From NCBI GenBank assembly GCA_007693585.1, contig REDH01000115.1, positions 1 through 48,921 on the forward strand: a DNA stretch of 48,921 bases, in the 5' to 3' direction. Below are positions 13,102 to 40,437 of the stretch, piece by piece. A program made the position numbers and the translations under genes. Under the pieces are notes generated by a model. The model did no database searches. It had not been told where the DNA came from and saw nothing but the letters and a program-made list of their open reading frames with translations. How positions within the stretch are numbered: the first letter of the stretch is position 1; each line of letters opens with the position of its first letter. Source of the DNA: Deltaproteobacteria bacterium. Its GTDB lineage: Bacteria; Myxococcota_A; Bradymonadia; REDH01.

Positions 13102-15825
<2,724 letters not shown>

Positions 15826-34855: not shown

Positions 34856-36178
34856 TCAGTTCTCGGGGAAGGCGGTCCAGCCACTCATCCAGTCTTCGCC
34901 ACCGGGAGCGAAGGCGCCGGCGTGGGTGGCGCTGGTGTCGAACCAGCCGTCGTCGGGCGGCGTGGCGCCGACGGTCGCGGCCGGGGAGCCGCTCGCGGGC
35001 ACGAGTCCGGGATTGCCGTAGTTGAACGGGTCGGCCAGGAGCGGGTCGGCGTCGAGGACGTTCTCGTGGGCCGGATCGGCGAGCCAGGCGTCGATGTCCC
35101 AGCCCTCGATGTTGGTGCCGTGCTCTCCGGTGTCGAAGATGATCGAGTTCCGGATGGCAAGGGCGCCGTCCTCGACCTGGGCACCGGTGGCATCATCGTT
35201 GACACGGATGCCGTTGGGGAAGCCCGTGACGATGGCGTTGCTGATGAGGCCTGCGGTACCGCGACGCAGGTTCATGGCGTAGGCCACCTGGCTGGCGTTG
35301 CCCGAGCCGACCATGGTCATGTTCCAGACGTTCGGGTTGGACCGGGGGAGGGCGTCGTTGTTGGCGCCGAGATTGTCGGCCTCGATCCCGTTGTCGCCGA
35401 CGGCGGCGTTCTGGGTGATGACGATGAACTGGGCGCGGCCGCTCCAGCCCTCGTCCCAGTCGAGTCCGTCGTCCTCGACGTGACTGATGACCGCGTAGCG
35501 GAGGTCGGCTGTTCCTCCGAAGAACTCGATGCCGTCGTCGTCGCCCAGGTGGGTCTGGATGTACTCGAGGGTGGTTCCCCGTCCGCAGCCCGAGAGGGTC
35601 AGGGAGTTGAGTTCGTTGTCGGGGCTGAGCTCGAACCCGGCGAATTCGATGCGCGCGTAGCGCAGGGTTCCGCAGTTGTGTTCGGGGTCGTCTCCGCCGT
35701 ACTGTCCCCGGGCGTCGGAGCTCTCGATGCCCTCGAGCTGGCCGGAGGGGATGTTGATGGGGGCTCGTCCGAGCATCGCCACGCCCCCCCAGTCCCCGGA
35801 CCGTCGCGTGCCGGGGGCCTTGGAGCTGGTGAAGACGATGGGGGCGGTGCGCGTGCCGCTGGCCTCGAGACGACCTGTGGCCGTCACGATCAGGGCGGAG
35901 CGGTCCTCTCCGAGGATGGTGGTTCCCGGCTCGATGGTGAGCACGGCGCCGTTCTCGACGAAGATGAGGTCTTCGAGGACCCAGGTGCGGTCGGCCGACC
36001 AGGTGGCGTCGGCCTGCACGGAGCAGCGCACGAGCACGCGGTCTCCATCCTCGACGTTCCGGCAATCACCGTTGCCGGGATCGCCGCCGGGAGCAGGATC
36101 GCTGTCCGAACAGCCCATGGCGAGCGCGGCCGCCGTGACGGCCCCCGCTGCGGTACGAGTCCACCAGGATACGTTCAT
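34856..36178 (-). CDS. Lipoprotein with parallel beta-helix-like repeats
   Basis: 440 aa. The signal peptide ends in a lipobox LAMGCSD (Cys23). The body has short beta-helix-like turns (VENGAVLTIEPGTTILG, RSALIVTATGRLEASGT, LNSLTLSGCGRGTTLEYIQ, DDDGIEFFGGTADLRYAVI). A conserved-looking GDWGGVAMLGRAPIN block resembles beta-helix lipoproteins often encoded beside TonB-dependent receptors. It may sit on the outer membrane as a partner of the receptor encoded directly upstream. Ligand unknown. Confidence 0.75.
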   Translation of the reverse strand: MNVSWWTRTAAGAVTAAALAMGCSDSDPAPGGDPGNGDCRNVEDGDRVLVRCSVQADATWSADRTWVLEDLIFVENGAVLTIEPGTTILGEDRSALIVTATGRLEASGTRTAPIVFTSSKAPGTRRSGDWGGVAMLGRAPINIPSGQLEGIESSDARGQYGGDDPEHNCGTLRYARIEFAGFELSPDNELNSLTLSGCGRGTTLEYIQTHLGDDDGIEFFGGTADLRYAVISHVEDDGLDWDEGWSGRAQFIVITQNAAVGDNGIEADNLGANNDALPRSNPNVWNMTMVGSGNASQVAYAMNLRRGTAGLISNAIVTGFPNGIRVNDDATGAQVEDGALAIRNSIIFDTGEHGTNIEGWDIDAWLADPAHENVLDADPLLADPFNYGNPGLVPASGSPAATVGATPPDDGWFDTSATHAGAFAPGGEDWMSGWTAFPEN

Positions 36179-36364: not shown

Positions 36365-39300
36365 TCAGAAGGACCAGCGCAGGGTGGCGCTCAGGCTCGT
36401 TCCGGGGCGCACCTCCTGCAGGTTCACACTCCCCTGGCGCTCGACGGAGGACTGGTTGAGCAGGTTGCGGGCGACGAGGCGCAGTCGCCACTGCTCGGCG
36501 AAGTCCCACGTCGCCGTGAGATCGAGCTGATGAACCGGCTGCTCGTAGATGTCCGGCAGGCCGAAGGCGCCCACATCCCGGATCCGCGGACCGAAGACAT
36601 TGTAGTAGGTCACCAGCGCGAGCCCCGTTCCGTCGTGGCTCCAGCCGAGGTTCGCGTTGGCCACCCAGGGAGACTGACCGGCCAGCGGACGCCGTCGGTT
36701 CGTGGCGTTGCGAAGCTGCTCCTCCGAGAACTCCACCCGCGAGTGAACCAGCGTGAGGTTCGAGCCCACGAAGAAGTCGCTCAACGCCTCGTGAAGCGCG
36801 CCCAGTCCGACGCGTCCCTCCAGCTCCATTCCGAAGTTCGTCGCACCATCGATGTTGCGCCACTGCTGGTTGCCGTTCTGGTCCAGAATGGTCGACTCGA
36901 TCGGATCCTCGAAGACCTTCACGAACGCCGAGACCGCCAGAACATCGACGGCGCCGGGAAAGTACTCCAGACGCAGGTCCATGTTGTGGATGCGCGTCGT
37001 CTCGAGATCCGGATTCCCCTGGATACTCCGCCGGCGCACATAGTCCTGGAAGAGGAACGGGGCGACCTCGCGGACCTGCGGATAGGCCAGCGTCATCGCG
37101 TACCCCGCGCGAAGAAGCACGTCCTCCTGCAGCTCCCAGGTCAGATTGGCTGAAGGCAGCACGTGAAACTCCGTCCGCTCCGCCCCGGCTGCGCTCGCTC
37201 CTCCCCCCGCCTGCGCGAACGGGCTCGTGGCCTCGACACTCTGCCGAAACGTCTCGGCCCGTGCCCCCGTCGCCACTCGCACCGCGGGAAGCAGCCGAAC
37301 ATCCACCAGCGCATAGCCCGCCCCAAGCCACTGCTCGCTCTCGTAGCTGTCCGTCGGGGTCGTGACCTCCGACAGCTCCACCTGCGTGCCGATGTTCTCC
37401 GGAGCGAAGAGCGCCTCCGGCGGAAGGAGCCGCGTCTCCGGATCGCGACCGATGAAGTCGAAGCGAAAGCGACGCGCGTCGAAGGACCGCTGACTCACCC
37501 GGCCCGAACCACCCACCTTCGTGTGGAACCGATCGTGCCAGCGGCTCAGAAGGTCCACGCGGCTCCCGAGATCGAGCTGGGAGAGCTCCGAGAAGAACCG
37601 CTCGCTCGACCCCGGCGCGTTCCGCCACGCATAGCCCGCGCCACCCTCGATGTACGTCAGGTCGCGCGTGTCCGGCTCCGAACGACTGCCGAGCCCCAGG
37701 TTGACCTGCCAGTCCAGATCCGAGTCCGCCGGAAGCTGAGTATGGCGACCCAGAAGCTGCGTGAACCACAGCGAACGCTCGACCCAGCGGAAGGTCTGCT
37801 GCTCGATGTTCGCCGCCTCCGCGTCACTGAACCCCTCCACCAGACGCGTCGTCTGCTCTGCAGATCGGTTGACCAGAGTCACGAGCGTCAGATGATCGGT
37901 CCGGCTCAGCTCGAACGCCAGCGTTCCCAGGCCTCCCCACTGCGCCCGAACCGTTCCCCGCTCCTCCTCCAGGGTCGTCCGGGACACCACGCGAGCCTCC
38001 TCCCCGATGCCCTCCACCCGGGCCAGCCGGACACGGGCCTCGTCCACGTCATGGCTGTGGCTCCACCCCAGCGATACCAGATAGCCCATCGGCACACCGA
38101 GCAGCCGCGCCGGACCCCCCACGGTCGCGCCCAGCCGAAGCCCAGGGAGCGCCGTCCGCTCCTCCGGAGACCAGACGTTCGGGAACGACCGACCGATCTC
38201 CACAGCCTCCTCCGGCGTCACCGTCCGCCCCGGACGAACCGCACGATCCGCGGGCACCGCCGCGGGAAGCCGCCGCGTCCCGTCGTCCATCGCCAGCCAG
38301 TCCAGACGACCGCCCCCGTGGGTCGGCATCGACCGGAACGTGCTCCCCGTCTCGCCGCTCACCCCCACGCTCAGCTCCAGCGTGAAGTCCTCCGGAAAGT
38401 CGCGGGTCGTGATGTCCATCAGACCCCCGGCCCACGACGCCGGAAGGTCCGGCGTCGCCGTCTTCGTGATCGCCAGACCCGCCAGCACCGACGCCGGAAA
38501 CAGGTCGAGCTGAACCCCCGGAAAGTCCGGATCCAGCGACGGCACCATCGCACCGTTCAACAGCACGTTCGTGTAGCGATCACCCAGACCTCGCACATAC
38601 AGATACCGCCCGTCCACCAGCGTCGCCGCGACCACCCGTCGCGCCGAGTCGCCCGCAGAACTGTCTGGCGACCGAGCGATCTCCTCCGCGCTGATGCCGT
38701 CCGACACCGCCGCATTCTCCCGACGCTGGAGCATCTGCATCGCCGCCGAGGAACGATCCGCGCGCCCCTCCACCACGAACGTCTCCACGGCGTCCCGATC
38801 CACCCGGAGCGTCACCACACCCAGACTGCTCGCCTCCCCCGCCTCGACCGTGATCGAATACGCCTCGGGACGGTACCCCAGCGCGCGGATGCGCACGATG
38901 TACTCCCCTTCGGGAAGCGCGACGGCGAATCGACCATCCACCCCCGTGCGCACCGGACGGTCCACGCCGTCGATCAGAACCGTGGCCTCGAACATCGGCT
39001 GGTTGAACTCCCCATCGAGAACCAACCCCTCGAGACGACCCGGCAGGGCCGCGCCAGGGGACGCGTCCCGCACCGCCGGAACGGGCTCCGGCTCCTCCTC
39101 GGCCTCCTCCTCGTCGAACGCATCCCAGAAATCGTCCCAGTCATCGTCGTCGTCGTCGTCCCAGTCATCGTCGTCGTCGTCGTCGTCCCAGTCATCGTCG
39201 TCTTGAGGATCGCCCTCGTCCTCGACGCCATGGTCTTCCTCGAGACGCGAATCCGGGTCCGAGTCGATCAGGTCGCCCTGGTCAACGCTCTCGCCGTTGT

Positions 39301-39440
39301 CGGCGAGAAACGGCCCAAATGGGGGGGGGCTGTGCAGCGGCCCGTCGTGGCTCTCCCAGGCCGAGCAGAAGGGAGACGAGCGCCACGAGGAGGAGGCGCG
39401 CATCCGGACGGCGAATGGAACGACATACAGAAGTACGCAT
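36365..39440 (-). CDS. TonB-dependent outer-membrane receptor, out of frame at a C9 tract
   Basis: Domains in order: signal peptide starting at ATG 39440 (RLLLVALVSLLLGLG, cleavage near RAAAQ), an acidic Asp/Trp-rich linker, a carboxypeptidase-regulatory-like beta domain (LEGLVLDGEFNQPMFEATVL), a plug (VRGLGDRYTNVLLNGAMVPS, then ITKTATPDLPASWAGG) and a 22-strand-type barrel ending in the aromatic SATLRWSF. The signal peptide and the receptor are in different frames. The switch point is a run of nine C (39321-39329 on the - strand). With eight C the frames join and give 1024 residues. As read, translation from 39440 stops after about 50 codons. Possible explanations are phase variation, frameshifting or a sequencing error. 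It lies between tonB and the lipoprotein gene. Confidence 0.85.
39131..39205. repeat. In-frame GTC/GAC microsatellite in the receptor gene
   Basis: Three copies of a 24-27 nt unit, CCCAGTCATC followed by (GTC)n, starting at 39136, 39160 and 39187. On the coding strand it encodes alternating W and runs of D. Copy number can change in steps of 3 nt without breaking the frame. Confidence 0.8.
39321..39329. repeat. Nine-base homopolymer (C9 on the coding strand) in the receptor gene
   Basis: Nine G on the + strand, nine C on the coding strand, directly after the signal-peptide codons GCA CAG. It marks the exact point where the reading frames diverge. Confidence 0.9.
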
Positions 39441-39535
39441 GAAGGTAAGGGGGTGCGAAGGAAGCGTGAGACGCAGCGGTCTGGCAGCACAGCAGAAATG
39501 CCCGAAGGGAGTTCGGACGGAATCGCGTGGACGGG

Positions 39536-40437
39536 TCAGTTCAGTCGGAAGGGCACGCGGTAGGTCTTCGCGACAGCGACGGCCTCGTCGTTGTGGTCAC
39601 GACCCGGCTCGTAGCGCCACTGGGCGAGGATGGAGATCACGTACTCGGCGAGCGCTTCGGGCCCGGAGCGAACTCGGCAGCCGCGCACATCCCCGCGCTC
39701 GGTGACGATGCACTGCACCACGACGAGCCCGGAGAGTGCGGCCTCGCGGAACTCCCGGGGGTAGTCGAAGTTGGGGAAGTCCACGCCGAGGGTGCCGGCG
39801 AGGACCGGCGCCACGTGCGTCTCCTCGAGGCGTACGGGCCGCCGTCGTTCGGGCTGTCGCCTCACCTGCTCCTGGGCCTCCGCGCGGGCCTGTCGTGTCC
39901 GGCGTCGGTCGACGCGTTCGCCCGGCTGCCGCGTACCGCGTTCGATCACGGGACCGGTACCGTCCTCGGATCCGCCGATGGCCTCCACGTCGAGCCGGTC
40001 GTCTTCCGGAGTGGGCGGCGGCTCGTCTTCCCGAGGTTCCGGTTCGGGCTCCGGCTCCGGCTCTGGCTCGTCCTCGGGCTCCGGTTCGGACTCCGGTTCG
40101 GGCTCCGGTTCGGGCTCCGGTTCCTGCAGGGGTTCCGGTTCGGGTTGCGGTTCGGGAGGGGGGGAGGTTCCTCTTCCTCCACTTCGGGTTCGTCGCGCAC
40201 GACGAGCTGCACGAAGCGGCTCTCGAAGGCCTGCAGTGCGTCTTCGCGCGATGGCGCGGGAACATGCTGCACGAGCCACCACACGGGGAAGGCCTGCAGG
40301 ATGAAGGAAAGACCGAAGGACGCCGCCAGGACACCGGAGAGGCCGAGAACGGAGGTGGCGAACACGAACAGACCGCGTTCGATCGCGTGTTCTTCCTTCG
40401 GGGGCGGGGCAGCACCGGGCGGGACGTATGCGGACAT
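39536..40437 (-). CDS. tonB: TonB energy-transducing protein, out of frame at a C7 tract
   Basis: The N-terminal frame from ATG 40437 gives a cytoplasmic tail, one membrane helix (about 22-50, [20 protein letters not shown]) and an acidic start of the linker ending EEEEPP. The C-terminal frame gives the Pro-Glu linker ([10 protein letters not shown]) and a TonB C-terminal domain ([20 protein letters not shown], then [20 protein letters not shown]). The span is 902 nt, not a multiple of 3. The two frames meet at seven C (40158-40164); eight would give one 300-residue protein. TonB couples the inner-membrane proton gradient to receptors such as the one encoded next. ExbB and ExbD are not in the window. 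Confidence 0.85.
40034..40156. repeat. Pro-Glu repeat in tonB
   Basis: Repeated CTCCGGTTCGGG-like 12-mers on the + strand encode (EP)n on the - strand. This is a typical periplasm-spanning TonB linker and a likely site of repeat-length change. Confidence 0.8.

Follow-up and report, generated by a model that had tools for sequence, protein, structure and literature searches.

Two adjacent genes in the window, the whole 48,921-nucleotide stretch of DNA analysed here, encode a TonB protein and a TonB-dependent receptor, and each loses its reading frame at its own longest run of C. The explanation favoured here, to which we give about an even chance of being correct, is that real slippage frameshifts have left the tonB-receptor pair off in the assembled sequence. 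Both tracts, both breaks, the intact homologues and the rarity of similar breaks in the genome sample are observed directly.

Frame breaks in the receptor and tonB genes

The nine-C run lies on the minus strand (G9 on the plus strand) at 39321-39329, exactly at the receptor frame break, in the minus-strand context ...GCACAG-CCCCCCCCC-ATTTGGG..., and is located inside the reading frame, 111 bases downstream of the ATG 39440 start. The frame of this ATG translates as MRTSVCRSIRRPDARLLLVALVSLLLGLGEPRRAAAQPPP, with a convincing signal peptide ending in RRAAAQ and a stop 15 codons past the tract start. The receptor frame, uninterrupted above and below C9, runs to 36365 and carries no signal peptide upstream of the tract, and the hydrophobic stretch scores 3.22 in the ATG 39440 frame versus 2.61 in the receptor body frame. 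As assembled, the signal peptide is thus out of frame with the body. The preliminary description had placed the run between signal peptide and receptor frame, which the sequence confirms, and its frame arithmetic is borne out, with a tract shortened by one base, to C8, giving a 1024-residue receptor from ATG 39440.

The receptor body comprises, in order, an acidic Asp/Trp linker, CarboxypepD_reg (PF13620), Plug (PF07715) and the beta-barrel (PF00593), with Plug and barrel both scoring above cut-off. A PDB sequence search with the receptor found no relative. The codon-based frame-shift score at C9 ranges from -1 to +5 and is ambiguous, so the receptor break is called from the signal peptide and the homologues. 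No sigma-70-like promoter was found near the tract. Antisense to the receptor, a 759-codon open frame occupies 37163-39442 of the plus strand, and high-GC codon bias is its most likely origin.

The tonB gene, directly upstream of the receptor, is also frame-broken, at its longest run, C7, a break absent from the preliminary description. The frame-shift score at this tract is +12 to +24 across five flank sizes (90-200 bases), and from around C7 onward the TonB proteins of relatives match the downstream frame alone. TonB_C (PF03544) scores above cut-off and is otherwise uninterrupted, with the N-terminal membrane anchor not in frame with it. Both the receptor and tonB are out of frame by a single base, the two shifts having opposite sense. 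Based on their order, strand and conserved synteny, the two genes presumably form one operon, which possibly includes the gene downstream of the receptor as well; the 440-residue product of that gene gave no Pfam match. Coordinates are collected in Table 1.

Table 1. Coordinates of the tonB-receptor region in the window.
Feature	Position	Strand	Description
tonB 5' part	40165..40437	-	ATG 40437, hydrophobic membrane anchor, beginning of Glu/Pro linker
tonB C7 tract	40158..40164	-	Longest run in tonB; second frame break
tonB 3' part	39536..40157	-	Glu-Pro linker and TonB_C (PF03544); frame differs from anchor
Receptor signal-peptide start	39330..39440	-	ATG 39440, ...LLLVALVSLLLGLGEPRRAAAQ; frame differs from receptor body
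TonB-dependent receptor body	36365..39320	-	Single unbroken frame
Downstream gene	34856..36178	-	Intact; 440-residue putative lipoprotein, LAMGC motif

Relatives and homopolymer runs across the genome

The tonB-receptor pair is kept in five genomes of the same family, all from other genera (L010, L011, L013, L015 and L029), with the same gene order, signal peptide, acidic linker and CarboxypepD_reg/Plug/barrel layout as here, and with 38-43% identity over the matched part. In all five, signal peptide, linker and receptor lie in one frame, and TonB is in one frame in four, the fifth being cut by a contig end. These pairs are uninterrupted and have no C/G run longer than six near the receptor 5' end, whereas here both frames are broken. 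Several members from other families likewise carry the receptor N-terminus in frame without a long tract. Within the same genome, the N-terminus is not separated from the body by a tract in any of the seven other Plug-domain receptors. A second genome of the species was found neither among the six genomes of the own-family search, nor in a scan of the genome collection (best match 39% identity, a Polyangiaceae MAG), nor by an exact-pattern scan of viral contigs. That MAG is the nearest named relative, and on this basis the uncultured source bacterium is probably a member of the Myxococcota.

Homopolymer runs were surveyed in a genome sample of about 1.2 Mb, taken in stretches and representing 24% of the genome, on which the codon model was also trained. 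No excess of long G/C runs was found in this sample: runs of exactly nine occurred 27 times against 30.9 expected from dinucleotides, runs of 6-11 were at or below the Markov expectation, and most other run lengths were also rarer than expected. C7 words in the window were likewise fewer than in shuffles (25 versus 34). The length of the C9 tract alone is within chance; what goes beyond chance is its position exactly at a frame break, together with the second break in the neighbouring gene. Of 59 runs of at least eight inside coding segments, 14 fell within the first tenth of the segment (24% versus 10%), an enrichment that may come partly from fuzzy segment starts.

Among runs of at least seven with a clear call in the sample, 169 keep the frame, including lengths of 8-10 and 12, and four do not; on inspection, three of these four resemble the start of a gene or a junction, and the remaining one is the tonB C7. 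A second method, based on segmentation, flagged 15 break candidates, and inspection by eye of ten of them, plus others, gave no clear mid-gene break, one (L077) being too near a contig end to judge. A search for other genes with a tract-displaced signal peptide, among those listed of 86 tracts near coding starts, left the case in the window alone standing out. The longest run seen well inside a contig in the sample is a G16 on the minus strand of L097 (about 13707-13722). It lies in frame, close to the beginning of a Gly-rich open frame (MAILDGGLGVGVWG...), and is a stronger candidate for length variation.

Proposed slippage and the alternative explanations

Under the favoured explanation, slipped-strand mispairing during replication would have changed by one base the length of the longest C run in each gene. 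As assembled, the receptor would lack its signal peptide and TonB its membrane anchor, so the pair would be off, and the tonB break points to the whole presumed operon being off. Loss of one partner would have relaxed selection on the other. Because both genes are otherwise intact, the off state would be reversible in principle. An incidental or recent loss of function in the lineage, rather than a dedicated switch, is most likely. We infer a correct DNA sequence, slippage as the cause and no functional expression of the pair. Breaks are rare across the genome, which speaks against mutation no less than against error.

Error in the assembly deserves separate weighing. Exact 55-base overlaps between contig ends (the start of L078 and the ends of L098 and L102) point to a short-read k=55 de Bruijn assembly, a type in which homopolymer length is comparatively reliable. 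On inspection, no resolvable run in the sample other than the tonB C7 interrupts a gene internally, so random homopolymer error is not widespread. Short-read consensus can nevertheless fail locally beside low-complexity coding sequence, and both break sites adjoin such sequence, namely Asp codon repeats and Glu-Pro repeats. The start of L059 and the end of L093 (contigs C17 and C56 of the same genome) run to about 50 C, which likewise suggests short reads and probably reflects poly-G artefacts of the reads taken into the assembly. A local consensus or assembly error at the two homopolymers, leaving both genes intact in the organism, is fairly unlikely on our estimate: it would draw on the coincidence of two opposite-sense errors in neighbouring genes, each beside repeats, on the resemblance of the poly-C contig ends to read artefacts and on the lower accuracy of short-read platforms at 8-base runs (PMC11140927), but the 169 other resolvable runs keep their frame and a majority-read mistake at C7 is improbable in short-read data. 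The read error that the preliminary description had offered as the ordinary alternative is accordingly weakened in its random form, long runs elsewhere rarely breaking frames, while a local form is possible.

Evolved phase variation, in which C9, perhaps together with the tonB C7, changes length often and toggles the operon within the population, is judged unlikely. A surface-receptor gene with a G/C run of at least eight inside its 5' end has the classic layout, the signal-peptide and receptor frames meet at C9 such that a different tract length restores one long open frame, run length and position match precedents (PMC3786947, PMC5084427, PMC2831843), and long runs are somewhat enriched at gene starts; against this, the tract is missing from every relative examined, long runs are not in excess genome-wide, the seven other receptors lack such a tract, and C7 is short for a hypermutable tract. 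An evolved switch is thus unproven and somewhat disfavoured. Of the ON/OFF switch proposed in the preliminary description, an off state produced by slippage is plausible, while a conserved switch fails on the relatives, since the five same-family genomes and more distant ones have the same protein without the tract; a lineage-specific switch is possible. A stricter version, a two-lock operon with independent C tracts in tonB and receptor and uptake on only when both are in register, appears quite improbable. Recoding, with slippage of the ribosome or during transcription on the C runs bringing some of the products back into frame, seems very unlikely: CCC-C within a run of C allows slippage at Pro codons and each break falls in a run of this kind, yet the two genes would need opposite slip directions, a similar site occurs in no relative, and no recoding RNA family was called in the window.

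Comparison with known systems

The significance of the slippage off state depends on the behaviour of the tracts in living cells. If they vary, the pair would provide an example of a contingency locus in an environmental lineage that is probably free-living, unusual in that the change affects the transducer as well as its receptor. If they are constant, the operon would have been either silenced recently or miscalled, and would serve as a warning that a tract together with a surface gene is insufficient to call phase variation.

The closest parallels are the haemoglobin receptor genes hmbR and hpuA of Neisseria meningitidis, which are phase-variable through poly-G tracts (PMC3786947). As in those genes, an iron-uptake receptor system carries, within the reading frame, a G/C run whose length modulo 3 decides expression, and the run length here is close to that of hmbR, which is on at nine bases and other multiples of three (PMC3786947). 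Runs of at least eight are predominantly variable in N. meningitidis (PMC5084427). Length variation of hmbR and hpuA has been measured among isolates, whereas the present case consists of one sequence with no tract in relatives; the second break, in tonB, also sets it apart from hmbR and hpuA. The 5' poly(A) tract of inlA in Listeria monocytogenes similarly involves a homopolymer frameshift at the 5' end of a surface-protein gene with a short truncated product (PMC2831843), as here, although the tract is poly(A) in inlA and poly(C) in the receptor, and for inlA many strains were compared and the frequency of variation was estimated with fusions (PMC2831843).
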